A DNA stretch of 64,000 nucleotides, from the IMG/VR virus record IMGVR_UViG_3300042560_001323, positions 1-64,000 of that record; one strand, given 5' to 3'. Source of the DNA: a virus. Both the position numbers and the translations under genes were made by a program. The notes below the pieces were generated by a model. The model had not been told where the DNA came from and searched no databases. It saw nothing but the letters and a program-made list of their open reading frames with translations. Below, in pieces: positions 9,472-62,983 of this stretch; the stretch's first letter is position 1, and the number at the start of each line of letters is the position of its first letter.

Positions 9472-10113
9472 TCAATCTCTCCCTTTCGCAAGAAACATTC
9501 GGTCAAAAATCATAAACGGCAATTCACCATTTTCGGAGCCAAGATTCTTCTCTACAAACTCAATGATAAGAGCCTGCATCACCTCGGCATACCTTTCGTG
9601 GGATTCAATATACTTAATTGCTTCTGGTACGAGTGCAGTTGCAATAGCATCAAGAGTTTTAGACTCTAGAGCATTAAGAGTAATTTGTTTTGGTTCAGGA
9701 TTTACGAGTTCAATTTTTACAATGTCATGTTGATAACTTTTCCATAAATTAGTGCCATTTTGATTGTAAGATAGGTTACAGCGGTCAAAATAAAATTTGT
9801 AGCAATTTCCCCTAAGTTGTAACCGGCCAGTATGTGTGTTGCCATTTTTAAGAATGACTTTCACTTCTTTGTTGCCATACGGTGAAAGATCAATATTCAT
9901 TGGTTGTTCAGGATTTACGAGTTCAATTTTTACAATATCAAAATGACTGTTATTCCATAAATTAGTGCCATTTCCAAAGTAAGAGTAGTGACATTTGCCA
10001 AAATAAAAGTTGTAGTAATTTCCCCTAAGTTGTAACCTGCCAGTATGTGTGTTGCCATTTTTAAGAATGACTTTCACTTCTTTGTTGCCATACGGTGAAA
10101 GATCAATATTCAT
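9472..10113 (-). CDS. protein with duplicated Sm-like domain, 213 aa
   Basis: Two near-identical tandem copies of about 72 residues, each starting MNIDLSPYGNKEVKVILKNG and containing THTGRLQLRGN, then a helical C-terminal region (TLDAIATALVPEAIKYIESH). The V-x-LKNG-x(4)-G-x-L pattern resembles the Sm/Hfq fold, so RNA binding is possible but unproven. The start is the first repeat's ATG, because the longer frame runs back through the -10 at 10138-10143. Confidence 0.65.
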   Translation of the reverse strand: MNIDLSPYGNKEVKVILKNGNTHTGRLQLRGNYYNFYFGKCHYSYFGNGTNLWNNSHFDIVKIELVNPEQPMNIDLSPYGNKEVKVILKNGNTHTGRLQLRGNCYKFYFDRCNLSYNQNGTNLWKSYQHDIVKIELVNPEPKQITLNALESKTLDAIATALVPEAIKYIESHERYAEVMQALIIEFVEKNLGSENGELPFMIFDRMFLAKGRD

Positions 10114-10137
10114 TGGTTGTTCAGGATTAACTATTAA

Positions 10138-10195
10138 ATGATAGCATGATCTTAGAATGGTTAGAGAACCTGGGTGCCAGTTGTTCAAGCGGCAC
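10138..10195 (-). promoter_or_regulatory. promoter module for 9472-10113
   Basis: -10 TATCAT (10138-10143), 30-nt gap, palindrome 10174-10195. Confidence 0.6.
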
Positions 10196-10559
10196 ATTCA
10201 AAAAGTGGAAGCATAACAATATGCTCACCATCTTCAATAAGTTTGTGCATACAAATCAGTTCGTGAGTTGCCCAGGCTATTGCTATTCTCATAGTGTGAT
10301 GTAAAACTTCAGTTGCCTCAAAAACTTCGTGCCAAATATAAGCCTCATTAGTTAAAACTTTATTGGTATATTCAATAAGGCGAGTTCCATAATAGTCATA
10401 AGTATTTTCAAATTCTAAGAATCTTTCCGTAATAAGTTTTTCTTCTTCTGAACCAAGATCCTCTACAAATGACCAAAAATTAAACACCGCCTCATAATTT
10501 GGGCCAAGTGCTTTTTCTGGGTTATCAATATAACTTTGCTGAAGTTGGAACAATGTCAT
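10185..10559 (-). CDS. diverged LGPNY-family protein, 124 aa
   Basis: NPEKALGPNYEAVFNFWSFV marks the family core, and ATHELICMHKLIEDGEHIVM the family C-terminus. The middle lacks the AAxx array and carries ordinary helical sequence. Function unknown. Confidence 0.75.
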   Translation of the reverse strand: MTLFQLQQSYIDNPEKALGPNYEAVFNFWSFVEDLGSEEEKLITERFLEFENTYDYYGTRLIEYTNKVLTNEAYIWHEVFEATEVLHHTMRIAIAWATHELICMHKLIEDGEHIVMLPLFECAA

Positions 10560-10585
10560 TTTTTGTTAAAGACCAAACTAAAGGA

Positions 10586-10643
10586 ATTATAGGGGCAAAA
10601 GCTGCCCCTCGTGCTACAGTTGTGTCAGTTGTTTATGTGGCAC
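10586..10643 (-). promoter_or_regulatory. promoter module with consensus -10 and hairpin
   Basis: -10 TATAAT (10586-10591), 30-nt gap, palindrome 10622-10643. A GC hairpin (GGGGCA / TGCCCC, 10592-10608) sits just upstream of the -10, as at 20489-20544. Confidence 0.65.
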
Positions 10644-10662
10644 ACTGCATCGTTTCACCTAT

Positions 10663-10779
10663 TCATTGGTGAATGATAAAAAAACGAAACACTGTAACCA
10701 AAATAATGGCTGTGCTAATGATTCCAATAAATCCGAGAAAGGTGACAAAATCGCCGGAAAAATTGAGAGTGTCGGGCAT
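10663..10779 (-). CDS. single-span membrane peptide, 38 aa
   Basis: MPDTLNFSGDFVTFLGFIGI continues as a hydrophobic span into FRFFIIHQ. One transmembrane helix is very likely. Ends just before the palindrome, like the other genes here. Confidence 0.45.
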   Translation of the reverse strand: MPDTLNFSGDFVTFLGFIGIISTAIILVTVFRFFIIHQ

Positions 10780-10806
10780 AGTAATTAAGAGCGAGGGAGT
10801 AGCTGG

Positions 10807-11202
10807 TTAGGTTTTATCCAAACCAGAAAAAAGAGGAACGAACAACAAAGTCTTACCGGCATTCAATAAAGTGTGCATACCAATTAGTTCATAAGTTGCA
10901 TACCCGGCGGCATCCCTGGCGGCATACCAGGCGGCATTCCTGGCGGCATCCCTGGCGGCAGACCAGGCGGCATCCCCGGCGGCATACCCGGCGGCATACC
11001 TGGCGGCATCCCAGGCGGCATCGTCTAGGGCATCATAACGGCGGGCAACTTCATACCATTGGTTCTCGGTAAGACCGTCCATAAACCACCAGAAGTTAAG
11101 GACGGTTTCGTAGTTTGGTCCTAGAAAATTCTGTGGATTTTTTAGGGCTTCAGGGTTTTGAAGGCGGTTGGAGAAGTTTTGGTGGGCTTTTGAGTAATTC
11201 AC
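10807..11202 (-). CDS. LGPNY-family Ala-repeat protein, 131 aa
   Basis: Short-form member: [20 protein letters not shown], core [27 protein letters not shown], 10 AAxx units, and the cap [24 protein letters not shown] overlap with the upstream gene. Confidence 0.8.
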
Positions 11203-16315: not shown

Positions 16316-16722
16316 AGGTCTTTGAGGTATTTAACAAAGAAAGGGGGCAAATCTTTTTTCAAAAGTTCGTGCATAACTAACAACTCGAGTGTTATCCAAC
16401 CCATTAAAAAATCAAATCCATTTCGTGGTGAAATTTCTTTGTCTTCACATGCACCAATAACATTATCCCATATATCGTCTCCAAATTCATATTTTTCAGT
16501 TTCAACGAATTCATTAACGTGTTTATATCCTTGTGCTCTTATTTCATAAATGGTTTCTTCGTAGTCTGTTCCCATTATTCTTGCTTGTTCACAATTCATT
16601 CCATCAACAAACCACCAGAAGTTCAAGATGGTTTCGTAGTTTGGGCCAAGATACTTTTATGGTTCTTCAATAATATCTGGATAATTTTCAGAAATTTTAA
16701 GGTGAATAGTGGAGTAGTTCAT
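16312..16722 (-). pseudogene. LGPNY-family gene with in-frame TAA
   Basis: Begins at ATG 16720-16722, which overlaps the upstream stop as ATGA, with [20 protein letters not shown] then P-TAA-KYLGPNYETILNFWWF. Paralogues have NPEKYLGPNY here, so one G-to-T change (GAA to TAA, near 16659) explains it. The remaining frame is open to 16312 and ends in the family cap (TLELLVMHELL). Confidence 0.7.
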
Positions 16723-17141
16723 AAGTCGTTAAAAAGAGGAACGAACAACAAAGTCTTACCAGCATTCAATAAAGTGTGCATACCAATTAGTTCATAAGTT
16801 GCATACCCGGCGGCATTCCTGGCGGCATACGCGGCGGCATCCCAGGCGGCATACGCGGCGGCATCCCAGGCGGCATCCCAGGCGGCATTCCTGGCGGCAT
16901 ACCCGGCGGCAGACCCGGCGGCATCCCTGGCGGCATACCAGGCGGCATCCCTGGCGGCATCGTCTAGGGCACGGTAGCGGCGGGCAACTTCATTCCATTG
17001 GTCGGCAGTAAGACCATCCATGAACCACCAGAAGTTAAGGACGGTTTCGTAGTTTGGTCCTAGAAAGTCTTGTGGACTTGTAAGAGCTTCAGGGTTTTGA
17101 AGTTCGTTGAAGAAGTTTTGGTGGGCTTTTGAGTAATTCAC
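16719..17141 (-). CDS. LGPNY-family Ala-repeat protein, 140 aa
   Basis: [20 protein letters not shown], core [20 protein letters not shown], 13 AAxx units including two AAAY units, and cap [24 protein letters not shown] overlaps with both neighbours. Confidence 0.8.
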
Positions 17142-17602
17142 TTTTGTTGCTCCACTTTAGAATCATTGAAATATTCCTGTTGAATCTTATCGCCAACAAG
17201 CAATCCAAATCCCCCACATAAAAGAGCAACAATAAGAACAATGCTATATTCCCTACTATTTTTGAGGCTCAAGAGTTCTTTAGAGGTTTTCGTTAATATT
17301 TTGGTTGCAAACCGGGCGCTACTAATACCAAATAAAAACGTCAAAAAGTATGGCGTATAAAATACAAAAAGCCATATAAAAATTCCCAATCCAATTAAGG
17401 TAAATGGCCCCGAGGGGCCATCGGCAATCGGACTTTGAATAGATTGTGAAGAAACTTCACGAATGTTTCGGATTTTATCTGGGGTAACGTGATAGATATT
17501 GCAAATTTGTTCTGTTACGCCATTATAACTGCTGGAGTTAATTTCTACAGTTTGCAGCCCAGAATTGCTCCCGAGCCAAACGTCTGCTTTATATTGTGCC
17601 AT
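17138..17602 (-). CDS. membrane protein, 154 aa
   Basis: [20 protein letters not shown] soluble N-domain (about 60 residues), then two hydrophobic segments around residues 67-95 and 122-140. Start at 17602, since 17638 adds residues that overlap the upstream gene. Not recognised. Confidence 0.55.
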   Translation of the reverse strand: MAQYKADVWLGSNSGLQTVEINSSSYNGVTEQICNIYHVTPDKIRNIREVSSQSIQSPIADGPSGPFTLIGLGIFIWLFVFYTPYFLTFLFGISSARFATKILTKTSKELLSLKNSREYSIVLIVALLCGGFGLLVGDKIQQEYFNDSKVEQQK

Positions 17603-18029
17603 CGTTAAAAAGAGGAACGAACAATAAGTCCTTACCATCGTCCAAAAGCGTGTGCATACTCATTAATTCCCAAGTGGCATCCCAGGCGGCATCCCCAGCG
17701 GCATTCCCAGCGGCATTCCCAGCGGCATTCCCAGCGGCATTCCCGGCGGCATCCCAGGCGGCATCCCCAGCGGCATACCAGGCGGCAGACCCGGCGGCAT
17801 CCCAGGCGGCATACCCGGCGGCATCCCTGGCGGCATTCCTGGCGGCAGAGTCTAGGGCACGGTAGCGGCGGGCAACTTCATTCCATTGGTCGGCAGTAAG
17901 ACCATCCATGAACCACCAGAAGTTAAGGACGGTTTCGTAGTTTGGTCCTAGAAAGTCTTGTGGACTTGTAAGAGCTTCAGGGTTTTGAAGTTCGTTGGAG
18001 AATTTTTGATGGGCTTTTGAGTAATTCAC
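17589..18029 (-). CDS. LGPNY-family Ala-repeat protein, 146 aa
   Basis: GTG start at 18027-18029 overlapping the upstream TAG. Same core as 16719-17141. Array of 14 AAxx units with a run of four identical AAGN units, a sign of very recent unit duplication. Cap [20 protein letters not shown]. Confidence 0.8.
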
Positions 18030-18241: not shown

Positions 18242-18275
18242 AAAGAGAGATTGGGTTCCGCTCAATCTCTCTTTT
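18242..18275 (-). terminator. strong hairpin terminator
   Basis: Twelve-base stem AAGAGAGATTG / CAATCTCTCTT with a 9-base loop, just after the stop of 18288-18761. It closes the ubiquitin-like operon. Confidence 0.7.
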
Positions 18276-18287
18276 GATCAAGGGTAA

Positions 18288-18761
18288 TCAGCCAGCCCAG
18301 GCATTATCGCCAGCGAGAATCCTGAAGCGTTCGGCAATATCCTCAACCGAATTGTAGGTCAACTCATCGAGACTCCTTTCTTCTGGTTCAAGAGTAGCAG
18401 GATCGGCGGTAATACCTGCAGCACGATTAGCAATAAGACGCTCAATACGAGCCCCAATGCTAGGTTCAGCCAGTTTAGTTTCAATGTATGCATCAATGTG
18501 GGCTTCAATCTCAGGCTTAACTTGACGGGCAACACCGTTAACAATAAGGGTTGAACCCATTCTGCTAACAATCCGGCGACAGATTTCGTTAACTCTATCC
18601 TCTTGACCGAGAACATTGGCAAACATTTCTTCGAGATGCTCATCGGTCAGAACAAGTTCTTTGCGAGTGCGAATCTCTTCAGTAAGAAGTTCTAGGCCAG
18701 CGAGCAGACTGTCAAACGTAACGAGTTTGTCAGCAATGGTGACTTTAGTAGTAGTAGACAT
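18288..18761 (-). CDS. hypothetical protein of the Ub-like operon, 157 aa
   Basis: MSTTTKVTIADKLVTFDSLL to ERFRILAGDNAWAG. Helical and acidic, with an AHIDAYIETKL helix pair. It starts 7 bases after the E1-like gene and is last in the operon. It is not a recognised part of ubiquitin-like systems; it could be a substrate or an accessory factor (inference from position only). Confidence 0.6.
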   Translation of the reverse strand: MSTTTKVTIADKLVTFDSLLAGLELLTEEIRTRKELVLTDEHLEEMFANVLGQEDRVNEICRRIVSRMGSTLIVNGVARQVKPEIEAHIDAYIETKLAEPSIGARIERLIANRAAGITADPATLEPEERSLDELTYNSVEDIAERFRILAGDNAWAG

Positions 18762-18768
18762 AGTTAAT

Positions 18769-19473
18769 TCAGGAAACGGAGGTTTTGAGGGTACGGACGT
18801 TGAAGTAGATGCCAGATTTTTTGGCTTCCAGTTTCCCATCCAGGAGATTTTGAATCACCGCCAAAGTAGCAGCGGCTGCCATAAAGTTGGCAGAGATAAG
18901 TTGCGGGCGCGATTCTTGAAGTCGGGCGCAACTACCAGCGTGAGGAATTTCATCCTCAGGTTGGATAATGTTTGGAAAAACATCCTTTGGATTCATTCCA
19001 ACATTCTCTCCATTGATACGACCAAACCAGAGAGTTTGACCGTGAACTTCTTCAATACCATCACTGTTGCCGGGAGTGATAAAGAAGAAGTCTTTCTCGG
19101 TGCAAGTAAGTTGAATCGCATCAATTACAGCAGCACGAGTTGCATCATTATCAACTGCTGCAATAATCAGTGGAGACTCACTTTCCTCCAGGAAAGGAAC
19201 AAAAGATGCCATCGTGATGTACTCACCAAATGCATTAACATTAGTGAGACCCATTGCACTACACATCTCAGCCATTGCATCAGCCTTATTCTGGCCAACG
19301 TGATCTGGTGTCATAAACTGTCGGCTTTGATTCTTATTCTCAAAGTCATCGCCATCAATGATTGTAACCATATTGTCGCAAGTTGCCGGATGATATTGAA
19401 GGGTTTTTACGAGAGGTGGAATCAAATAACCACCAGTACCACCAGTACCAATAACAAAGGTCTTGTCAAACAT
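18769..19473 (-). CDS. E1/ThiF-like adenylating enzyme, 234 aa
   Basis: Expected to adenylate the C-terminus of the ubiquitin-like protein. Rossmann nucleotide loop VIGTGGTGGYL (residues 7-17), acidic strand end IIDGDDFENKNQSRQFM (about 38-54), and a candidate catalytic cysteine in HAGSCARLQESRPQL (about 180). Closest in layout to ThiF proteins of PRTRC systems on plasmids. It has its own promoter module and follows the E2-like gene. Too short for a eukaryotic-type E1, but normal for the bacterial ThiF class. Confidence 0.8.
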   Translation of the reverse strand: MFDKTFVIGTGGTGGYLIPPLVKTLQYHPATCDNMVTIIDGDDFENKNQSRQFMTPDHVGQNKADAMAEMCSAMGLTNVNAFGEYITMASFVPFLEESESPLIIAAVDNDATRAAVIDAIQLTCTEKDFFFITPGNSDGIEEVHGQTLWFGRINGENVGMNPKDVFPNIIQPEDEIPHAGSCARLQESRPQLISANFMAAAATLAVIQNLLDGKLEAKKSGIYFNVRTLKTSVS

Positions 19474-19502
19474 AAAGAAGAAAGGGGGTGAAGGACAAAT
19501 GA

Positions 19503-19559
19503 ATCATAGAGCAAAGGCCGCCCTTAGGATTAGATGATGGACAGTCTCACAACTGTCCA
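19503..19559 (-). promoter_or_regulatory. promoter module for the E1-like gene
   Basis: -10 TATGAT (19503-19508), 29-nt gap, palindrome 19538-19559 (TGGACAG / CTGTCCA arms) overlapping the end of the E2-like gene. Confidence 0.6.
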
Positions 19560-20458
19560 ATCAGCTCTCCATTCTTGGTGACAAACCATTCCTTTTTACA
19601 GGAATCAGCCATCGTAAGATAACCAGGATATTTAACTCCTTCGTGCTCGAGAACGGTTTCGCGGAGAGGAAGAAGCATCATATATTTGGCATCTTTGATG
19701 GGTTTAAACCCGGCTGAAATCATCCAGAAAAATGCAGCAACGTTATCCTCGGCGTGGAGCATAAAAAGAGCATCTGCTTTTTCGGCAATAAAGTTATAGT
19801 TTTGAGCATACGTTCTAAAGAAATTGTCTGCGGTGATATCCGTTTTGACGATTTCATTATTCCGAACGAACTCGCGGATCTTAGTAAGATCGTTATTGAA
19901 AGGGGTTTCAAAGAACAACTTCACCATACTTTTAAGTGATTTTGGTTTCTCATTATTCCCCCAGCAAATAGAATGTGAACTATGGGTATTTGCAAGATGT
20001 TTGCGTTGCCTTGAGAATTTAATCCTATTATTAGAAACTTGTGTTGCCTGAAGGAATGCACTCTGGCGATCAGGTGAAACCTGAAATCTTTGATCCCGCG
20101 ACTTAATATTTAGCCCAATTTGAAAAACAGTAGGAGCAACATCAAATGTTACCCACTGTTCTTCGGGAAGTGTTAGTCCTTTGGGGCAGACAGTATCTGG
20201 ACCAATGCCATAATCACTCACCCAACGGCAACGACGACCATTCTCGTGAGTGCAATTGTGACAATTTGCTCGATAAAAGTCATCATAATCAGACCGCGAA
20301 CTTGGGTCTACTTGGTCTACTTTGGCAAAGTTTTCTTCCATATGTGCGGCTAAAAATAGCCGGTCTGGAGTAAAAGTGTAAGAAATTGCCGCAGTTTGTT
20401 GTGGAAGAAGATGTAGATTCCCCTTTGCGGGGGATTCAGAAAAGAGAACAGAATTCAT
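19547..20458 (-). CDS. E2-like (PRTRC-B type) protein, 303 aa
   Basis: The segment HSICWGNNEKPKSLKSMVKL (about 162-181), followed by FFETPFNNDLT, matches the 'CxGN ... FF.TPFN.DL' pattern I associate with PRTRC-B/E2-fold proteins. C165 is the candidate thioester cysteine. An insert at residues 66-91 has four cysteines (CHNC, C77, C91) that could bind zinc. It lies between the JAB and E1 genes, the normal order for such cassettes. The E2 call rests on this motif plus context; alignment would settle it. Confidence 0.65.
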   Translation of the reverse strand: MNSVLFSESPAKGNLHLLPQQTAAISYTFTPDRLFLAAHMEENFAKVDQVDPSSRSDYDDFYRANCHNCTHENGRRCRWVSDYGIGPDTVCPKGLTLPEEQWVTFDVAPTVFQIGLNIKSRDQRFQVSPDRQSAFLQATQVSNNRIKFSRQRKHLANTHSSHSICWGNNEKPKSLKSMVKLFFETPFNNDLTKIREFVRNNEIVKTDITADNFFRTYAQNYNFIAEKADALFMLHAEDNVAAFFWMISAGFKPIKDAKYMMLLPLRETVLEHEGVKYPGYLTMADSCKKEWFVTKNGELIGQL

Positions 20459-20488
20459 TATGGTTTAATGGGATGCGTGGTCATTTTT

Positions 20489-20544
20489 AGCATAGGGGCA
20501 AAATGCCCCAATGTGCTAACAGTGTGCCAGTTAATTGAGTGTCT
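20489..20544 (-). promoter_or_regulatory. promoter module with hairpin for the E2-like gene
   Basis: -10 TATGCT (20489-20494), 29-nt gap, palindrome 20524-20544. Hairpin GGGGC-AAAAT-GCCCC at 20495-20509 directly upstream of the -10. Confidence 0.6.
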
Positions 20545-20551
20545 ACGGAGA

Positions 20552-21969
20552 TCATTGTGACATTTCAATTTCAACTCCAATAAGAAAAGCAGCAAGTTGT
20601 TGCTTCATTTCTTCCAAGGCATCTGAATCATTGCGATTCTGCTTTAGATAATCCTCGAGCAAGTCAATAATGGGATAAATGTCTTCTGCAGTTGGAACAT
20701 CGTTAGATGCCCCCATTACATCAACAGTGCCATCATTGAAGTAGAACGGATCCCGATACTTATCTTGCCAAGTATCACGATATTCCCAATCTTCCCCATC
20801 ATTGATGCTATATACTTCATTATGATACCCATCATTGATGCCATATACTTCATTATGATACTCTTGATAAGAATTGTAAGTCTTTTTGGTTACAGGATTT
20901 TGCCTTGCTGGGGGAAGTTTCTTGAGAATGTTGCTCGTTGCAGCACGAACAGCCTGGCCACCCTTGAAACCATAGGTAACAGGAGTAGAGAAGTCAACAT
21001 ACTTGAGTACATTCTCGTGAAAGGTTACACCTTCTACGGGAGTTGCATCAATTAGATTATCATAATGGAGTTTGAAGCGGCGATTGTTACCAGTAACACT
21101 GGCAGCAATTTCGTACTTCATAGTCTTGGTATTAATCTTACCCACAGTAAGATGAATTCCAGGATCGCCTAGCTCATACTTATCATCAACGCCCGAGAAA
21201 AAGGCATTCATCGTATTCGTTTTGTTACCACACAAATTGATAAATTTGTGGGGTTAGGTCATTTCTGCCTAACTCTATGACTTTCACCATAGACCGGACT
21301 ATACCATACATAGAAGTATTTATCTATGCCCTCGGGTCTAGTCTCTGAACGCTCCCCATTTAAGGGTATCCGCTGCTGATTGCCCATTGTAATCCCCGAA
21401 CTTTTCAAACCATCACGCTTGTCGTTTCCAACTACGTTGTGGTATCAGGGCTTTAGGGTGTTCCAGCAATTTACCGAGGTTTTACTCGCACCACACAATT
21501 AATGCGAGTGGCTAGAACCTACAGGAACCCACCCTTCAGGAGGATAAGACGTAAATTCTTCGCCAGTAACAAGGTCGACACACTCATCAAAGTTATCAGC
21601 CTTGACGCTTGCGGCTGTTACTTTCTGTTTGGGAACAACTGCACGATATTGAGAAGGATTGGAAGCATTACGCAAGAAGCGAATAGATACTTCCATCTGT
21701 GAAGGAACCTTGTCTACAAAGTAGAAACAAAGTTTAATCCAACTGGACCAAAGATCAGCCGGAACGCGATGAATATCCTCCCTAACTTCAAAATGCCCAA
21801 GATGTTCTTTAGTAATGACAATGTTAGCCTCGGGGTCTGAGCAAGGTCGCAGATAACTAACCCACGGGCCTTTATAGACTTCCCAGGTTCCATCATCCGG
21901 TGTTCGTAGAATAGAAGGTGGAGCTTCAACCTTTGGAGATTCTTCAATTGTGAGAGTTTCTTCGGTCAT
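20552..21969 (-). CDS. JAB/JAMM deubiquitinase-like peptidase, split by a group I intron
   Basis: Exon 1 is 21502-21969 (from ATG, MTEETLTIEESPKVEAP) and ends with codons for GSSHSH. Exon 2 is 20552-21217 and begins NTMNAFFSGVDDKYELG. Joining them gives 377 residues with the complete metal site H-S-H-x7-S-x2-D. The likely motif glutamate lies in SQMEVSIRFLRN upstream. This zinc peptidase would cleave or process the ubiquitin-like partner. Unspliced message stops at TAA, the first intron codon. Near the C-terminus a YHNEVY-x-INDG unit is duplicated. Homologous to PRTRC-A proteins by motif and context. Confidence 0.85.
21218..21501 (-). other. group I self-splicing intron, 284 nt, no ORF
   Basis: The 5' splice site follows the U of CAU. 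The exon end ACUCGCAU pairs over 8 positions with the internal guide GUGCGAGU (near 21480-21487), including the expected final U-G wobble. Core elements are visible: P near 21461-21471 (AATTGCTGGAA), R at 21337-21349 (TTCAGAGACTAGA) and S at 21296-21305 (GGTATAGTCC). R and S pair as GACTA/TAGTC to form P7. The intron ends in G (21218). No homing endonuclease is encoded inside. Confidence 0.9.
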
Positions 21970-21984
21970 AATGTAATAGGAAAG

Positions 21985-22021
21985 AAAAACCCACCCAGTC
22001 GTTGAAAACAACCGGGCGGGC
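21985..22021 (-). terminator. rho-independent terminator after the Ub-like gene
   Basis: Stem CCCGCCCGGTTG / CAACGACTGGGTGGG (a few mismatches), loop TTTT, then TTTTT. Located between the Ub-like and JAB genes. It probably lets the small first gene be made in excess of the enzymes. Confidence 0.75.
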
Positions 22022-22044
22022 AATGTTAATCAAAGCGGACGGAA

Positions 22045-22314
22045 TCAGGCTGCGCCTTTGCCTTCAGCTTTGAGGATACCGCGCACGGTTTCACCGGGAC
22101 GGACTTGGGTAGTGCCAGGCACTTCAACGTTGTCGATAGCGAAGGTGCGAACGCGGGTGACATCGTTGATAAGGCGATGGCCATACTCACCGAACAGCTG
22201 TGATACGGTCTTACCGTTGTACTGTTCAAAGGTGAGAACCACCTCTTCCTCGTTCACCACAAGGGTAACGGCGGCGCCGGTATCTTGTTGACGGAGGGTT
22301 TCGTAGAAAGACAT
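22045..22314 (-). CDS. ubiquitin-like beta-grasp protein, 89 aa
   Basis: MSFYETLRQQDTGAAVTLVV, then YNGKTVSQLFGEYGHRL and IDNVEVPGTTQVRPGETVRG. A strand-helix-strand layout with the late 'PGETV' turn is typical of MoaD/ThiS/ubiquitin folds. First gene of a cassette with E1, E2 and JAB. The C-terminus ends EGKGAA rather than the usual GlyGly, so it may need trimming after a Gly by the JAB peptidase (inference). Small size and leading position match the PRTRC-C-type partner. Confidence 0.65.
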   Translation of the reverse strand: MSFYETLRQQDTGAAVTLVVNEEEVVLTFEQYNGKTVSQLFGEYGHRLINDVTRVRTFAIDNVEVPGTTQVRPGETVRGILKAEGKGAA

Positions 22315-22778: not shown

Positions 22779-23975
22779 ATGCACTTAAAAGCATACAAGT
22801 TCAGGATTTATCCAGATAAAGAACAAGAAGTTTTACTAGCGAAGACTTTCGGTTGTTGCAGGTTTGTCTGGAACAAACTAGTTGAAAACTTCAATAATCA
22901 GTCAAAAGAAGTAGTTACAGAAAAGACATTAAAAGACACTCCAGAATTTGAGTTTCTTAAAGAAGTTTCAGCTTCTACACTTCAACAAAAGAGAAATGAC
23001 TTTATTGAGTTCAAGAAACAGTTTTTCAATAAGAAAAGAAAGGCCAAATTAGGACGGCCTTCTTTTAAGAAGAAATCAAATCGTCAGTCTTTTAGACTTC
23101 CCAATCAAAAGTTCAAGTTAGACCAAGAAAATTCAGTGGTTAGACTGGAGAAAATTGGTTGGGTTAAAGTTATTATTGACCGCGAAATCCCCGAAGATGC
23201 CGATTTTAGGAACATTACCGTTTCCAAAACTCCTACTGGTAAATATTTTGCTTCTATCCTAATCAAACAAGAACTCAATCCAATACCCTCTACTAGCAAG
23301 GTAGTAGGTATTGATTTGGGTATTAAAGACTTGTTCATTCTTTCAAATGGTCAAGTTATCAACAACCCCAAGTGGTTTCGCAAGAACCAAGCGAAACTTA
23401 AAAAAGCCCAGAAACATTTAAGTCGGAAAAAGAAGGGAAGTAATCGGTATAACCAGCAACGAATTAAAGTTGCTAAAGTACACGAATTCATTACTAATTC
23501 CCGAAATTACTTCCTTCATAACGTGTCTACTGCTTTAGTGAACACTTTTGATTTGATAGTTCTTGAAGACTTGAATGTTTCTGGAATGCTAAAGAACCGT
23601 AAATTAGCGAAATCCATTAGCGATGCCTCGTGGTCTACTTTTGTTACTATGTTGGAGTACAAGTGCAACTGGTATGGTAAAGTCTTGGTTAAGATTAACC
23701 GCTTCTTTCCTTCTAGTAAGACTTGTAGTTCTTGTGGACATAAGCAAGACAAGATGCCTCTTTCGGTTAGAGAATGGACTTGCCCCTCTTGCGGCTCAAA
23801 ACACGATAGAGATTTAAATGCCTCTATCAACATCTTAAAGGAAGGTTGGCGCAGTCTAACCGACCAAGAACTTTCATCTGCAGAGTATGCAGATTACGGG
23901 CGTGGAGCGGAATTAAGACTGAGCGGTGATTTTCACCCTTTAGCATCTGCTGTGAAGCGTTTAGGAAATCAATAG
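22779..23975 (+). CDS. tnpB: TnpB RNA-guided nuclease, 398 aa
   Basis: Full-length, with N-terminal OrfB helix-turn-helix region (MHLKAYKFRIYPDKEQE), RuvC aspartate in GIDLGIKDLFILSNG (about 178), glutamate in IVLEDLNVSGM, zinc knuckles CSSCGHK and CPSCGSKHDRD with the last catalytic aspartate, and LSSAEYADYGRGAELRL at the end. The family cuts DNA guided by an RNA made from the element's right end and the flanking sequence, and so favours retention of the element. Confidence 0.9.
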   Translation: MHLKAYKFRIYPDKEQEVLLAKTFGCCRFVWNKLVENFNNQSKEVVTEKTLKDTPEFEFLKEVSASTLQQKRNDFIEFKKQFFNKKRKAKLGRPSFKKKSNRQSFRLPNQKFKLDQENSVVRLEKIGWVKVIIDREIPEDADFRNITVSKTPTGKYFASILIKQELNPIPSTSKVVGIDLGIKDLFILSNGQVINNPKWFRKNQAKLKKAQKHLSRKKKGSNRYNQQRIKVAKVHEFITNSRNYFLHNVSTALVNTFDLIVLEDLNVSGMLKNRKLAKSISDASWSTFVTMLEYKCNWYGKVLVKINRFFPSSKTCSSCGHKQDKMPLSVREWTCPSCGSKHDRDLNASINILKEGWRSLTDQELSSAEYADYGRGAELRLSGDFHPLASAVKRLGNQ

Positions 23976-24008: not shown

Positions 24009-24135
24009 CAAGCCAGGACCAAAAGTTTAAAACTGTTTTATAATTTGGCCCCATAAGGCTCTCAGGTTGAGCTATAGCAGCATTATCACCACCAAAATGA
24101 TTATTAAAGTTTTGATGCGATTTAGAGTAGTTCAT
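24009..24135 (-). pseudogene. LGPNY-family gene truncated by TnpB insertion
   Basis: [20 protein letters not shown], core LMGPNYKTVLNFWSWLDS, then the element's right end. No matching C-terminal part was found on the far side of the element, so insertion was accompanied or followed by deletion. Confidence 0.7.
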
Positions 24136-24542
24136 AAGTCGGCAAAAAGAGGAACGAACAATAAGTCCTTACCATCGTCCAAAAGCGTGTGCATACCCAT
24201 TAGTTCATAAGTGGCATACCAGGCGGCATTCCTGGCGGCATACCCGGCGGCATACCCGGCGGCATACCCGGCGGCATCCCAGGCGGCATACCCGGCGGCA
24301 TCCCGGGCGGCATTCCTGGCGGCATACCCGGCGGCATCCCTGGCGGCATACCCGGCGGCATAGTCTAGGGCACGGTAGCGGCGGGCAACTTCATTCCATT
24401 GGTTGGCAGTAAGACCATCCGTAAACCACCAGAAGTTAAGGACGGTTTCGTAGTTTGGTCCTAGAAAGTCTTGTGGACTTGTAAGAGCTTCAGGGTTTTG
24501 AAGTTCGTTGGAGAATTTTTGATGGGCTTTTGAGTGTTTCAT
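24132..24542 (-). CDS. LGPNY-family Ala-repeat protein, 136 aa
   Basis: [20 protein letters not shown], 12 AAxx units, cap [20 protein letters not shown]. From residue 10 on it is identical to 36265-36675 although the two are 12 kb apart, which means recent duplication or gene conversion. Confidence 0.8.
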
Positions 24543-31027: not shown

Positions 31028-32224
31028 ATGCACTTAAAAGCATACAAGTTCAGGATTTATCCAAATAAAGAGCAGGAATTTATACTGGCAAAGACCTTCG
31101 GTTGTTGCAGGTTTGTTTGGAACAAACTCGTTGAAAACTTCAACAGTAACTCTAAGGAATTTATTAACGAAAAGACATTAAAAGACACTCCCGAATTTGA
31201 GTTTCTTAAAGAAGTTTCTGCTGCCGCCATTCAAGGAAAAAGAAGAGATTTTGACGAGTTCAAAAAACAGTTCTTTAACAAGAAAAGAAAGAAAAAACTA
31301 GGGAGACCCAAATACAAGAAAAAATCAAATCGGCAGTCTTTTGGATTACCCAATCAGAAGTTCAAGTTAGACCAAGAAAAGTCTTTACTAAGATTGGAGA
31401 AAATTGGTTGGGTTAAAGTTGTTATTGACCGTGAAATCCCGGAGGATGCAGATTTCAGGATCATCACGGTTTCTAAAACTCCAACAGGAAAGTATTTTGT
31501 TTCTATTCTGGTTAAGCAAGAACTCAATCCAATACCCTCTACTGGTAAGGTAGTAGGTATTGATTTGGGTATTAAAGACTTGTTCATTTTAAGTAATGGT
31601 CAAGCAATTAACAACCCCAAGTGGTTTCGCAAGAACCAAGCGAAACTCAAAAAAGCCCAGAAACATTTAAGCCGCAAGAAAAAAGGTAGTAATGGGTATA
31701 ACCGTCAACGAATTAAAGTTGCTGAAATACACGAATTCATTACTAATTCCCGAAATTACTTCCTTCATAGCGTGTCTACTGCTTTAGTGAACACTTTTGA
31801 TGTAATTTCGGTTGAAGACCTTAATGTTTCTGGAATGTTGAAGAACCGCAAGTTATCTAAATCAATCTCGGATGCTTCTTGGTCTACTTTTGTTACTATG
31901 TTGGAATACAAGTGCAATTGGTATGGTAAAGTCTTAGTTAAGATTAACCGATTCTTTCCTTCTAGTAAGACTTGTAGTTCTTGTGGTCATAAAGAAGACA
32001 AGATGCAGCTTTCGGTTAGGGAATGGACTTGTCCTTCTTGTGGTTCTCAACACGATAGAGACTTAAATGCCTCTATCAACATCTTAAAGGAAGGTTGGCG
32101 CGGTCTAACCGACCAAGAACTTTCATCGGCGGAGTACGTCGATTACGGACGTGGAGCGGAATTAAGACTAAATGGTGAAAATCATCATTTAGCATCTGCT
32201 ATGAAACTTCTAGAGAATCAATAG
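31028..32224 (+). CDS. tnpB: TnpB RNA-guided nuclease, 398 aa
   Basis: Intact, about as long as and closely similar to the copy at 22779, with GIDLGIKDLFILSNG, VEDLNVSGM (Val for Leu beside the glutamate), CSSCGHK, CPSCGSQHDRDLNAS. Most differences from copy B are scattered, so both copies may be active. Confidence 0.9.
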   Translation: MHLKAYKFRIYPNKEQEFILAKTFGCCRFVWNKLVENFNSNSKEFINEKTLKDTPEFEFLKEVSAAAIQGKRRDFDEFKKQFFNKKRKKKLGRPKYKKKSNRQSFGLPNQKFKLDQEKSLLRLEKIGWVKVVIDREIPEDADFRIITVSKTPTGKYFVSILVKQELNPIPSTGKVVGIDLGIKDLFILSNGQAINNPKWFRKNQAKLKKAQKHLSRKKKGSNGYNRQRIKVAEIHEFITNSRNYFLHSVSTALVNTFDVISVEDLNVSGMLKNRKLSKSISDASWSTFVTMLEYKCNWYGKVLVKINRFFPSSKTCSSCGHKEDKMQLSVREWTCPSCGSQHDRDLNASINILKEGWRGLTDQELSSAEYVDYGRGAELRLNGENHHLASAMKLLENQ

Positions 32225-37255: not shown

Positions 37256-38548
37256 TTATTCTGGCCCAGAGAGACGTTCTACTCCACCCATATATGGAAT
37301 CAATGCGGTAGGTAAGGTAACACTACCATCACTTTGTTGTCCATATTCTAATATTGCTGCCATTGTGCGACCAACCGCTAGACCGCTACCATTAAGAGTG
37401 TGTAACAATTGAACATTCTTGTTATCCCTAAAGCGAATAGATGAGCGGTTAGCCTGAAAATCAGTACAAGTGCTACAACTAGAAATCTCGCGGTAAGTAC
37501 CGGCGCCAGCCATCCAGACCTCTAAATCATAAGTGCGAGCAGCAGAAAATCCTAAATCTCCGCCACATAGTTCCATACGGCGATAAGGTAATTCTAGCGC
37601 CTCTAATATACCTTCAGCATCGCGGGTAAGCTGTTCGTGAGCTTCCAACGATTTTTCAGGATGACAGAACCAATACAACTCAACTTTATTAAACTGATGT
37701 AAGCGAATTAAACCTCTTGTATCTCTTCCATAAGAACCAGCCTCACGACGGAAGCAGGGTGTATGCGCCACATATTTTAAGGGTAGGCGATCTATATTAA
37801 TGATCTCGTCACGATGTAGGGCAGTGATAGGAACCTCGGCCGTGGGAGTAAGCCATAGATCATCGTCAGCACACTTAAAACTTTCATCCGCAAATTTGGG
37901 GAGTTGTCCAGAACCAGTCAGACTTGTGCTATTTACTAAAATTGGTGGCATAACCTCTTTATAACCATTGCCAGTATGACGATCTAGCATAAAAGAAATC
38001 AAAGCCCTTTCTAATTTAGCCCCTTGTCCTAATAAAGTCACAAAACGACTTTGTGCAATACGCACGGAACGTTCAACGTCAAGCAAACCCAAACGTTCAG
38101 CAATCTGCCAGTGTTCTTGTAAGGTTTCTCCAAGATTTGGTTTGCGGAGACTACCCCATACTTTCACTATTACATTGTCATCTTCTCCACTGCCGGTTGG
38201 AACTTGAGGATACGGTAAGTTGGGTATAGTGAGCAGTTGTTCTTGTAATTTCTGCTGTAGGCCATTCTCTTCTGCTATAAGATCGCTAACTTGTTGTTTA
38301 ATAGAACTTCCCCTCTCACGCAATTTTTGCAACTCTGGCTCATCACGATTAACTCCAAGTTGGACTTGTTGACCAATTTCTTTACCGATTGAATTACCTT
38401 CGGCTTGTAATTTTTCTCGTTTTTGTTGTATATCTTTTTCAGCAGTTGCAAGTTTTTGCAACTCTTTTAAGTCAATCTCTAATCCGCGAAGAGTCAATAA
38501 ATCACTAATAACTTTGGGGTTTTCGCGTAACATACGATAATTGAGCAT
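37256..38548 (-). CDS. serS: seryl-tRNA synthetase, 430 aa
   Basis: Complete class II enzyme of normal length. N-terminal coiled-coil arm (about 30-105) for tRNA-Ser, motif 2 with FRREAGSYGRDTRGLIRLHQ, and motif 3 GSGLAVGRTMAAILEYGQQ. Attaches serine to tRNA-Ser. Unusual in a phage-like context; likely taken from a cyanobacterial host. No tRNA-Ser gene was seen in the window. Confidence 0.9.
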   Translation of the reverse strand: MLNYRMLRENPKVISDLLTLRGLEIDLKELQKLATAEKDIQQKREKLQAEGNSIGKEIGQQVQLGVNRDEPELQKLRERGSSIKQQVSDLIAEENGLQQKLQEQLLTIPNLPYPQVPTGSGEDDNVIVKVWGSLRKPNLGETLQEHWQIAERLGLLDVERSVRIAQSRFVTLLGQGAKLERALISFMLDRHTGNGYKEVMPPILVNSTSLTGSGQLPKFADESFKCADDDLWLTPTAEVPITALHRDEIINIDRLPLKYVAHTPCFRREAGSYGRDTRGLIRLHQFNKVELYWFCHPEKSLEAHEQLTRDAEGILEALELPYRRMELCGGDLGFSAARTYDLEVWMAGAGTYREISSCSTCTDFQANRSSIRFRDNKNVQLLHTLNGSGLAVGRTMAAILEYGQQSDGSVTLPTALIPYMGGVERLSGPE

Positions 38549-56988: not shown

Positions 56989-59304
56989 TCAGAAAGTGAC
57001 CCTGTTCCTGACGGTTTCAAAGTCTACAAGATTGTGTAACTGTCCATTTTCAAAGACAGTTTGAAGAGCAATCGGATAATCCAATGCACCTTCAACATCT
57101 GTTACAAAACCATTTTCTGTCTTATAAAGGGTTACACGACCTTTCTTGGATTCCTTACCGAAATCTGTGATTGGTTGCTTGTAAACATCTCGCCATTCAC
57201 CATTGACTCTTGCGGCAGAACATTTCATTGCAAACTTTAAGGTATCCCTATCAACTTGCTGAAGAAGTCCACCGCCTTGACCGAAGGTGATATTATCTGC
57301 CGAGAATCCTGCCGTGGTTGCACGATAGAGAATTCGGTCAATTGTTGCCTGGTTAATGCCATCACCTTGAATAACACTAACATTGTTAAGAACTTTATAG
57401 CCCTTATCGTTGATGGTATGCCCAAAGTGTTCGTCAAGAATTTGTAGGCATTCGGTTACAACTTGTGGGGGATGACCAGAGTTTCCGGTAACCATTATAC
57501 ATCTATTTCTCTTAACCAAAATCATTCCGGTTGGAACTTTTACGCAATGCACTGTTCCCTTATACATTACTTTAGTTTTGGAAATAGATTGTCCGCCAAC
57601 AAAAGGATTATCTAGAATATGGGCAGTATAGACATCGGAAAAATATTCTTTTCTTTTATCTTCTGATTTTGAAATTAGTATTCCTTTTCCGGCGGAAATT
57701 GCTATATACTCAACAATATCAATGTTTTCTTTGACCGTGGTATCATATTTAAATCTACCTCCATCCCTAATAGTTGAATCCCAGTGCTTTAATTCTTCAA
57801 TAAATTGTTCACACCAAAGACTATCTAAGTTTGAGATATCTACCCAGTTAAAAGTTTTTGAAATAACTTCATTCGAGTTAACCGGAATTCTAATGCAAAT
57901 TGTAGATTGACCTCCTCTAGAATTTAGATAATAAATTTTATACTCGTATTCTAAATGATTGAGAATGGTTAACAGTCTATCGTGCTTTCTTTCTTTTTGA
58001 AAGTTGAACTCAATTATAATTGAAGAAGAATTAACCTTTTTAATACAACCATCAGCTTGCAGGGCGATTAAAAATCGTTCGTGCCAAGTCAATTGTTTAC
58101 CGTTTGTTTGAGATTTTGCCGCCCTTATTTTCTTATACTGATAATTGTTTTGTTTATACTCGGAAGCCTCTTTAATTTGTATTCCCCTTTCAGGATTAAT
58201 ATAAACCATTCTATGATTTGGTGTAACTAATAAATCTACTTTTCCGTGAAAATCACGAAATTCATACATTTCACCTTCATAAGGCTGATTTATGATTTCT
58301 AATGGCTTAACAAATTCGTAAGTTTGGTCTTCTTTTACTTGTGCAACTAAATCTTGATCAGTTAATTCGGTAAAAAACTTCCAACCCGATGGGGTTAAAA
58401 TTTGACTCTTACTATCCAGGCAATCTGGTCGAATTCCGATGACTGCACCAGAATTGATAACTTCATCTTTCAACTCTGTTCCCCAGAGTTTACTACAGGC
58501 ATCATAGATGTTGTAACTATCACTAACAGCGGCTAGAACTGCTCCAGGTTTACCGAAGAGTTTTAGCATATTGCGAAAAGCCTCAACCTCGTTTTCTCTA
58601 CCCCAAGATGTAACAGTGCTATGTTCCATAGCGGGAATAGAGAGCCCCGCCATCTTGGCATCATAATACCTTCTTGCATAGAGAAGGGCTGCTACGGTAT
58701 CAGTTCCTTTGAAGTTGACAAGATGGGCTGCTCCACCAATGCCAGCAGATTCATAAGAAGAGACTCCTCTCGATCCAAAATCGTGTAACTTGAAGTCAAT
58801 AAGTTCTGGAGTTCCCGTTTTATGAAGATACTCCAAGATAATTTTCTTACTTGTGTAAGAATTCGTACAGACTGTCGTTGGATACCATACCGCTCGTTGC
58901 AATGCCGCCTCCAAGAAAGAACTTAACCACCAGCACTTGGGGTTAGTTGGTTCAATCGTAACAAGAACATTCTTCGTTGGAACAACTGTTCCTTCTGGAA
59001 CTGCCTTGATTATAACTGGAAGCCAGCCATTATGCTCTTTGAGAATGTATTCCCAAAGTTCACGGTAGAATGGCTCACCGTGAGCAGTGATAATCTCGTC
59101 TGCAACATCAATGTCTTCTTGTGTGATTGGCTTAGACATATATTCCATGAGGAACATCTGTAAACCAAAGAACACAGTTTCATCCCATTTACCACCTCTA
59201 CTCTCAATGTAAGAGTAGACGCTTTCAGTTCCAGGAGGATACTGATAAGGTTGGGAATACTTGTAGGAATCAGCGTTGAGCAGAAGATTTTTAAAAAGGT
59301 CCAT
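56989..59304 (-). CDS. nampt: nicotinamide phosphoribosyltransferase with intein, 771 aa (457 after splicing)
   Basis: Makes NMN from nicotinamide and PRPP. The spliced protein has normal NAMPT length, with FGSRGVSSYESAGIGGAAHL, MAGLSIPAMEHSTVTSWG (catalytic His near 228) and, after splicing, GIRPD-SGHPPQVVTECL, the phosphate-binding RPDSG motif. The intein (residues 295-608) lies between that Asp and Ser, so no activity is expected before splicing. Strong AAGGAG and a special hairpin precede the start. With the NMN adenylyltransferase gene it completes nicotinamide to NAD+. Confidence 0.9.
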   Translation of the reverse strand: MDLFKNLLLNADSYKYSQPYQYPPGTESVYSYIESRGGKWDETVFFGLQMFLMEYMSKPITQEDIDVADEIITAHGEPFYRELWEYILKEHNGWLPVIIKAVPEGTVVPTKNVLVTIEPTNPKCWWLSSFLEAALQRAVWYPTTVCTNSYTSKKIILEYLHKTGTPELIDFKLHDFGSRGVSSYESAGIGGAAHLVNFKGTDTVAALLYARRYYDAKMAGLSIPAMEHSTVTSWGRENEVEAFRNMLKLFGKPGAVLAAVSDSYNIYDACSKLWGTELKDEVINSGAVIGIRPDCLDSKSQILTPSGWKFFTELTDQDLVAQVKEDQTYEFVKPLEIINQPYEGEMYEFRDFHGKVDLLVTPNHRMVYINPERGIQIKEASEYKQNNYQYKKIRAAKSQTNGKQLTWHERFLIALQADGCIKKVNSSSIIIEFNFQKERKHDRLLTILNHLEYEYKIYYLNSRGGQSTICIRIPVNSNEVISKTFNWVDISNLDSLWCEQFIEELKHWDSTIRDGGRFKYDTTVKENIDIVEYIAISAGKGILISKSEDKRKEYFSDVYTAHILDNPFVGGQSISKTKVMYKGTVHCVKVPTGMILVKRNRCIMVTGNSGHPPQVVTECLQILDEHFGHTINDKGYKVLNNVSVIQGDGINQATIDRILYRATTAGFSADNITFGQGGGLLQQVDRDTLKFAMKCSAARVNGEWRDVYKQPITDFGKESKKGRVTLYKTENGFVTDVEGALDYPIALQTVFENGQLHNLVDFETVRNRVTF
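57481..58422 (-). mobile_element. intein with LAGLIDADG-type endonuclease region
   Basis: 314 codons. Starts with Cys (CLDSKSQILTPSGWKFF), has block-B-like LLVTPNHRMVY, an endonuclease motif FLIALQADGCIK (about residues 411-422) and a weaker second one (EYIAISAGKGILI), and ends VTGN with Ser as first extein residue. Splicing residues are all present, so it is probably active. It inserts in the most conserved codons of the host gene. Confidence 0.9.
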
Positions 59305-61951: not shown

Positions 61952-62983
61952 TTAAACTCCAGTAAAATAAGAAATAATTTCGTAGTGGTCTTCAAAAGTC
62001 TGTGCAGAATCTACTTGAGAAAGAGGAATCCAGGTTGCAGAAGTTGCATCGGAACCTCCCCGAACTTTCGGTAGTTCACCATCAGGAAGACAAATGTTAA
62101 AGGCGTGAGTAATAGTCCTACCCCTTGAACTGCGTTGAATGGCATCAAAAACGTGAGTGTTCTTAATGTTTCCGCGAAGAACAGGAGAAGGAACTTTAAG
62201 ACCAGTTTCTTCTCGGAGTTCTCTAATCATTGCATCCTCAAGAGATGCATCACTATTTGCATCCAAGAAGCCTCCTGGAAGTGCAAGCAATCCTCGCCCT
62301 GGTTCAGAACGACGATTAATCATTAAGATGTGGCCAGATTGAATAACTACTGCATCTACAGTCACAAATGTTGGAGGATAAGGATATGATGCAAATTGTT
62401 GCTTATACATTTCCTCAAACTGCCGCTCTCGGACAACTTGAGCAAACTCTTCAGTTTTCTTAAACACTTCAAGATATTCTAGGATACGTTGTGGAATAAC
62501 TCCTTGAATAAAATTAAGATTGGAGTCATCCCTGAAATACAAATTCCTAATGTTAGTTGCACTCAATTCTTCAACAAGAGGAACCTCAACAAGTTCCCAC
62601 TGGGGGAACATTTCAAGATAGTAAGAACTTTCATCTTTTTTGTGACCGATGATAGCCACCTTATCAGTGGGTGCAGTTTCGGCCTTTACAATTTCTTGAA
62701 CTCGGACTGCCCAGGCAGTGTCATTGTATAGACTATCTCGAGTTCCTACAACTACAAAATCCAGTTCTTCTTCGTATCCAAGAATGGATAGAGTAGGAGA
62801 AATCATATCATAACGGTCGCAGAGTGTAAATGGATTCTTATAGGTTCGCGGTTGATGAGCAGAACCGACCACAAGAATAACTTTATCTGCTAGTGCTGCT
62901 GCTTGTTTGAAAATTTCTAGGTGTGCATTGTGAAACGGCTGAAATCTACCGATGAACACAATGGCATCGTATTGTTTGGTCAT
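61952..62983 (-). CDS. nadM: bifunctional NMN adenylyltransferase / Nudix hydrolase, 343 aa
   Basis: N-domain: FIGRFQPFHNAHLEIFKQAA with the H-x-x-H nucleotidyltransferase site, and VGSAHQPRTYKNPFTLCDRY. C-domain: Nudix box GGFLDANSDASLEDAMIREL-REETGL (residues about 238-263). Same two-domain layout as the cyanobacterial NadM-Nudix protein. Converts NMN to NAD+; the Nudix part cleaves ADP-ribose. Preceded by AAGGAG and the twin hairpin. Partner of NAMPT. Confidence 0.9.
   Translation of the reverse strand: MTKQYDAIVFIGRFQPFHNAHLEIFKQAAALADKVILVVGSAHQPRTYKNPFTLCDRYDMISPTLSILGYEEELDFVVVGTRDSLYNDTAWAVRVQEIVKAETAPTDKVAIIGHKKDESSYYLEMFPQWELVEVPLVEELSATNIRNLYFRDDSNLNFIQGVIPQRILEYLEVFKKTEEFAQVVRERQFEEMYKQQFASYPYPPTFVTVDAVVIQSGHILMINRRSEPGRGLLALPGGFLDANSDASLEDAMIRELREETGLKVPSPVLRGNIKNTHVFDAIQRSSRGRTITHAFNICLPDGELPKVRGGSDATSATWIPLSQVDSAQTFEDHYEIISYFTGV

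Follow-up and report, generated by a model that had tools for sequence, protein, structure and literature searches.

Whether a phage can carry a protein-tagging system of its own is the question raised by five minus-strand genes found between positions 22314 and 18288 of the window, that is, the 64,000-nucleotide stretch analyzed here, which is the first 64 kb of the 243,166-bp virus record IMGVR_UViG_3300042560_001323. The genes encode, in order, a ubiquitin-like protein (Ubl), a JAB peptidase, an E2-like protein, an E1/ThiF-like enzyme and a fifth protein, X, and together they probably represent a working, reversible and virus-adapted Ubl-conjugation system, of the kind formed by the PRTRC core and the 'type 6d' operons of Iyer and colleagues. 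Purifying selection acts on each of the five genes, with ratios of nonsynonymous to synonymous substitution (dN/dS) of 0.02-0.27 in close pairs, pairs with saturated silent sites being excluded. The gene set, strand, order and outer coordinates given in an earlier note on this DNA (Ubl start at 22314, last stop at 18288) were confirmed, and the identities proposed there held in the main, through family matches for ThiF, JAB and E2 and a predicted beta-grasp fold for Ubl; JAB, taken there for a single reading frame, is in fact interrupted by a group I intron that the note had missed, its exons lying at 21969-21502 and 21217-20555. The features of the locus are the following:

22048-22314, minus strand: Ubl, 89 aa, ending in KAEGKG and then AA, stop at 22045; assigned by AlphaFold2/Foldseek and the invariant K86-G87
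21989-22021, minus strand: terminator-like hairpin and T run in the gap between Ubl and JAB, a 15-pair stem and then TTTTCTTT
21502-21969, minus strand: JAB exon 1, 156 aa, with a JAB-N-like region, ending in VGSSHSH
21218-21501, minus strand: group I intron, 284 nt, with no open reading frame (ORF) of note; Rfam RF00028
20555-21217, minus strand: JAB exon 2, 221 aa, stop at 20552
19550-20458, minus strand: E2-like protein, 303 aa, candidate catalytic C165 (ICWG); assigned by profiles and motifs
18772-19473, minus strand: E1/ThiF-like adenylating enzyme, 234 aa; assigned by Pfam ThiF, PRTRC_ThiF, alignment and tree
18291-18761, minus strand: X, the fifth cassette gene, 157 aa, last stop at 18288
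18242-18274, no strand assigned: 12-bp palindrome past the last gene, read from the sequence

A terminator had been supposed at each end of the cassette. At 22021-21989, the strong hairpin separates Ubl from JAB rather than marking the outer 5' end, and the terminator scan did not pick out the weaker palindrome after the last gene (18242-18274). Most relatives also have a hairpin in the gap between Ubl and JAB, of unlike sequence, which suggests that the tag is made in excess of the enzymes.

Judged from its gene content, the virus is a T4-like cyanophage and a relative of Synechococcus phage B23, in agreement with the cyanophage setting first proposed. The record encodes a gp23-type major head protein, a tail sheath 65% identical to that of B23 (Kyanoviridae), a gp32-type single-stranded DNA-binding protein, a T4-type DNA polymerase and ribonucleotide reductase. 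The gp23 protein is 75-80% identical in three relatives (loci L033, L021 and L017), and another relative, L018, encodes a cyanobacterial-type transfer-messenger RNA; B23 itself was isolated from a subarctic lake (PMC7171214). The window virus infects freshwater cyanobacteria. A search of B23 with E1 and JAB gave no match; that phage is without the cassette.

Components of the cassette

For the window proteins, matches to the PRTRC and Prok- families all scored below the curated cut-offs, and a PHROGs search of the cassette proteins returned no functional match, only weak or unknown-function ones. E1 was matched by Pfam ThiF (2.6e-11) and PRTRC_ThiF (TIGR03736; 2.5e-15, 56.5 bits against a cut-off of 144.75), and GxGGxG, D40-G-D, KN, RQ, K63, D108 and C182 (in SCA) are conserved in it across phages. 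The predicted spliced JAB (377 aa), alignable over its full length with intronless relatives, matched PRTRC_A (TIGR03735; 7e-5, 22.4 bits against a cut-off of 101.8) and Prok-JAB (2e-4), and profile-profile comparison with a plasmid and phage set including PRTRC_A of pMOL28 gave a probability of 99.3 (E 9.8e-21). Its residues E93, H154, H156, S164 and D167 were invariant in 12 sequences, as were W36, R22 and R100. Of the profiles searched against solved structures, that of E1 gave a weak match to yeast Ube1, and those of JAB, Ubl and E2 nothing useful.

The 303-aa protein is likely an E2, its fold and catalysis being predicted from profiles and motifs. Prok-E2_D matched the window protein at 0.003 and four of the 16 family members in all, the best at 5e-6, while the region round C165 was aligned with PRTRC_B-type E2s over the Cys region with a profile probability of 96 (E 3.9e-9). 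C165 (in ICWG), N157, W166, N188 and D190 were invariant in 16 viral proteins, and four further conserved Cys (66, 69, 77 and 91) suggest a metal-binding insert.

The Ubl was modelled with AlphaFold2 from 14 aligned rows (predicted local distance difference test, pLDDT, 78) and showed a strand-strand-helix-strands arrangement, the beta-grasp order that had been anticipated for the 89-aa protein. The top Foldseek matches in the PDB include SUMO, MoaD, NEDD8 and ubiquitin, with probabilities of 0.95-1.00 and template modelling scores of ~0.6, at weak E-values (0.004 and up). The end of the protein, GKGAA, does lack the Gly-Gly pair, as had been remarked, but the suggestion that its processing might therefore differ was only half right, Lys-Gly with a short tail being the norm of the family: K86-G87 was invariant in the 14 aligned viral Ubls and was followed by a tail of 0-2 residues, which looks like the processing site of the family. 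Remoter viral cassettes have small proteins with ends such as RTGTKG, and the same K-G with a longer tail is found in PRTRC_C of pMOL28 (AGAKG, then AYAQI) and in a Gloeothece plasmid protein (RAGTKG, then SN). Tandem Ubls with units ending in KG were found in Bacillus phage KLEB27-3 (four units), L070 (two) and L041 (about five); a cut there would be needed for free tags to be produced, and it is natural to infer that JAB would cleave Ubl after KG. Polyubiquitin-like genes, with units ending in GTKG or AGVKG, lie at L041:4054-5160, L070:4204-4593 and L003:748-1455.

X, the 157-aa gene that had been described as tightly linked to the cassette, is indeed so: it lies 3' of E1 in the close relatives aligned, where its homologues (109-131 aa) follow E1 directly or past a GIY-YIG-like gene. 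Its dN/dS is 0.06-0.14 in close pairs. A family search with X gave no match, and the protein is possibly helical.

The same components could serve sulfur transfer rather than tagging; in that case E1 would convert Ubl to a thiocarboxylate acting as sulfur donor for a cofactor or tRNA, and JAB would do no more than trim Ubl. The ThiF type of E1, the match of the beta-grasp model to MoaD and the weak ThiS and Ub-Mut7C matches of Ubls from single relatives agree with such a role. Carriers of the ThiS/MoaD kind have a C-terminal Gly-Gly, whereas the cassette Ubl ends in Lys-Gly; moreover, all aligned cassettes of the clade encode an E2-like protein whose Cys is invariant, and neither a rhodanese nor a cofactor gene was seen within the cassette. 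We therefore consider a sulfur-carrier function unlikely.

Distribution and relation to known systems

Alignment-based, profile-guided queries were needed to recover related loci, since a single-sequence E1 scan of viral contigs gave no match. With such scans, 68 JAB-bearing and 35 E1-bearing viral loci were obtained, and the order Ubl-JAB-E2-E1 was found in the window and in approximately 13 distinct related IMG/VR viruses, with X after E1 in the close relatives; the search for this gene order that the earlier note had proposed was thus productive. In the E1 tree (87 rows), the window sequence groups with other cyanophage-type sequences in a 12-member clade (Shimodaira-Hasegawa-like approximate likelihood ratio test support 97), nested in a 28-row, all-viral group (98) that stands apart from the plasmid and genome rows. 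The tree was obtained by a quick search and contains several long branches, so its deeper joins are tentative.

The PRTRC system of Cupriavidus metallidurans plasmid pMOL28 has a JAB (PRTRC_A), an E2-like protein (PRTRC_B) and a ThiF that are related to those of the cassette, and a Ubl with KG and a tail (PRTRC_C). The pMOL28 order is ParB-E-C-F-B-A-ThiF, in contrast to Ubl-JAB-E2-E1-X in the window, and the window cassette differs further in the N-terminal part and four-Cys insert of its E2, in the extra gene X and in its virus-only E1 clade. PRTRC ParB (TIGR03734) had no match in the 243-kb record, whose completeness is not established. Because ParB was not found, the order differs and the E2 has no invariant downstream His, the cassette is PRTRC-core-like and not a complete PRTRC system; the PRTRC relationship first noticed is well supported as that of a conjugation cassette, but does not extend to the full set. 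It is accordingly improbable that the phage uses a plasmid-type PRTRC maintenance module in segregation or replication instead of tagging: the top family matches are PRTRC proteins, as such a module would have it, yet the ParB search of the record gave no match, the gene order is unlike that of pMOL28 and the viral E1 clade is separate from the plasmid rows.

The type 6d operons of Iyer, Burroughs and Aravind (2006) have in common with the cassette a small Ubl with a C-terminal Gly, a JAB with JAB-N, a separate E1 and an E2-like protein with a Cys (PMC1779556). The conserved R and W of type 6d JAB-N are matched here by R22/R100 and W36, an equivalence that is our reading. In type 6d a conserved His follows the E2 Cys (PMC1779556), whereas the present cassette is phage-borne and its E2 is without such an invariant His; X is not evidently the same as the helical protein of type 6d. 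The CBASS Cap2/Cap3 and BilABCD systems also share E1, E2 and JAMM-type parts, but protect the bacterial host, and PADLOC models gave a weak match to E1 alone (E1-E2 9.6e-7; BilD 0.015).

Among isolated phages, Vibrio phage D69, KLEB27-3 and Salmonella phage Arash carry E2-JAB-E1 with a Ubl ending in KG upstream, multi-unit in D69 and KLEB27-3. In these phages E2 precedes JAB, the gene is intron-free at the site described below, E1 is 30-32% identical to that of the window in the alignment, and the cassette proteins are mostly annotated as hypothetical or structural. The Arash E1 (gp246c) and E2 (gp248c) homologues are labelled 'structural protein' in GenBank, a label that its authors assigned on at least 2 unique peptides in liquid chromatography-mass spectrometry of purified particles (PMC10585845). 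Table 2 of that paper adds Gp247, which is JAB in the GenBank numbering and hypothetical in GenBank (PMC10585845); the table and the GenBank labels disagree in places, and the authors caution that abundant enzymes may be carried over (PMC10585845). The Arash Ubl, MSTSIRATVVHIPGRD...RRTGTKG (L004, ~100-300), is in a different frame from the annotated gp251c, so that the annotation appears wrong and the Ubl may be absent from the database that the authors searched. No description of PRTRC or Ubl-conjugation cassettes carried by phages was found in the open-access literature; subscription papers and preprints were outside this coverage.

The group I intron in the JAB gene

The JAB frame closes with a TAA right after GSSHSH and reopens 284 nt downstream. 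The intervening segment matched Rfam RF00028 with 54.8 bits (E 3.7e-11), above the cut-off of 50, and its RNA folded better than shuffled sequences (z = -4.0). The insertion point lies between a His and an Asn codon, HSH^NTMNAFFSGVDD, inside the metal-binding JAMM motif, which is uninterrupted in intronless relatives (HSHNTM). As read from the sequence, P1 is formed by ACUCGCAU/GUGCGAGU, with a U.G pair at the 5' splice site; the 3' end of exon 1, ACTCGCAT, pairs with GTGCGAGT of the intron, whose last base is G. The exons join in frame to give HSHNTMNAFFSGVDD, with an exact HxHx7SxxD (H154, H156, S164 and D167). Because the unspliced frame hits a stop right after HSH, the predicted self-splicing intron must be removed if JAB is to be active in the window virus. 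An observation of another kind is a 33-nt tandem duplication at 20795-20860 in exon 2, which adds 11 residues (YHNEVYGINDG/YHNEVYSINDG).

The same intron was found at the same codon in two other viruses. In L030 it scored 63.3 bits and was 93% identical to that of the window, against 67% and 61% identity for the flanking exons; in the third virus (L157/L174) the intron was 94% identical (59.2 bits in L174) and the exons 66% and 60%. This excess of intron over exon identity (93-94% against 60-67%) fits recent lateral spread. Exon 1 of the intronless L025 is 97% identical to that of L030, and the flanking codons follow the pattern of co-conversion (TCG CAT/AAT ACG in L030 against AGC CAC/AAC ACC in L025), which is partial in L157 (AAC ACG). 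In a fourth virus, L181 (IMGVR_UViG_3300035681_000001, 190 kb), the group I intron is a different one (L181:4388-5508; 83.1 bits): it carries a LAGLIDADG endonuclease ORF and is inserted at HSHNTMG^AFFSG, 12 nt downstream of the window site. The JAMM motif is unbroken in nearly all other viral loci fetched.

Phage group I introns occur in catalytic sites of conserved genes. With two unlike introns 12 nt apart, the alignments mark the catalytic codons of JAMM as a repeated insertion target of such elements; in all likelihood the intron is mobile and exploits near-invariant codons as a stable site. Other phage introns of this kind, a subject reviewed in PMC3984707, are likewise small, placed at the most conserved enzyme codons and at a site common to viruses; the present case differs from known ones in its host gene, a JAMM peptidase, and in the pair of unlike introns.

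That the intron and a nearby TnpB insertion broke JAB and left the locus partly dead in the window virus is hard to credit, for although JAB occupies two ORFs, a TnpB gene adjoins the cassette and exon 2 bears the 33-nt duplication, the intron exceeds the Rfam group I threshold with a good P1 and a 3' G, splicing would restore HxHx7SxxD exactly, three viruses keep the intron with intact exons, and in close relatives purifying selection acts on every gene of the cassette.

GIY-YIG-like genes, mutually related, lie in or beside the cassette at L026:5991-6878 and 9979-10977, L030:5448-6503 and L018:10045-10854, with part of the E1 C-terminus repeated past the gene in L018. Such a gene was considered as the homing endonuclease of the intron and set aside as a lead only, being absent from the record of the window virus; the likeness was judged by eye, and two of the proteins tested against Pfam gave no GIY-YIG match. 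Matches of the intron DNA in other phages covered at most 55% and were uninformative on its origin.

Genomic surroundings and the favoured reading

Four similar TnpB-type genes of 398 aa occur in the record (22779-23972 and 31028-32221 in the window; 190307-191503 and 220801-221997 in the genome), one of which directly adjoins the cassette. Several similar proteins with a common N-terminus and Ala-rich DAAGYAA-type repeats are encoded at 16719-17141, 17589-18029 and 24132-24542. Further off in the window lie a seryl-tRNA synthetase-like gene (37259-38548), a glutamine riboswitch aptamer (RF01739; 39350-39247, minus strand, 37.6 bits) and a nicotinamide phosphoribosyltransferase gene (56992-59304) with a big, intein-like internal insertion (~residues 300-610). 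The cytidylyltransferase-NUDIX gene near the latter (61955-62983) suggests salvage of nicotinamide adenine dinucleotide.

In the Ubl-conjugation system that we favour, JAB would be translated from a group I-spliced mRNA and would trim Ubl after Lys86-Gly87, removing AA. The terminal glycine would then be adenylated by E1 and perhaps held on C182, from where C165 of the E2-like protein would take Ubl and hand it over to a target, either a host protein or the phage's own particle; JAB could take the tag off again, and, owing to the hairpin after the Ubl gene, the tag could be produced in greater amounts than the enzymes. The virion-detected label of the E1 and E2 homologues in Arash, a distant relative, lends this reading some support and is the single lead on the tagging of host defence or virion proteins that the earlier note thought possible.

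Several points weigh against it. A Foldseek comparison of the whole E2 model (pLDDT 86) with the PDB, the fold check proposed in the earlier note, gave no UBC match (best probability 0.30), the low-probability matches being to unrelated structures and discounted; the E2 assignment thus leans on profiles, such as that to PRTRC_B-type E2s, and not on structure, though extra domains may mask a UBC core in the comparison. The viral E2 alignment has no invariant His downstream of the Cys, and JAB and E1 fall short of the PRTRC curated cut-offs. Conjugation, catalysis and splicing are predictions.

A wider reading is put forward tentatively, as a possibility somewhat short of even: the cassettes may belong to a long-established, virus-only Ubl-conjugation lineage in tailed phages, with single-Gly (Lys-Gly) tags and, among them, polyubiquitin-like precursors, that tags host or virion proteins in the lytic phase. 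On this reading, the cyanophage deconjugase would need group I intron splicing, and removal of the tag could be timed or conditional. Trypsin leaves a single glycine (+57.02 Da) on lysine, which in composition is identical to the usual iodoacetamide adduct, and because of this such tags could have gone unseen so far.

Ubl conjugation in bacteria has been studied mostly as host antiviral defence, and a virus-only lineage in lytic phages, if true, would extend protein tagging to the phages themselves. The repeated group I invasion of the JAMM codons provides independent evidence of a near-invariant peptidase active site, and splicing-dependent deconjugation is a testable possibility. Since the cassette is compact, tandem Ubls occur naturally, the fifth gene is conserved and the isolates D69, KLEB27-3 and Arash are related, the substrates of such tagging could be looked for directly.

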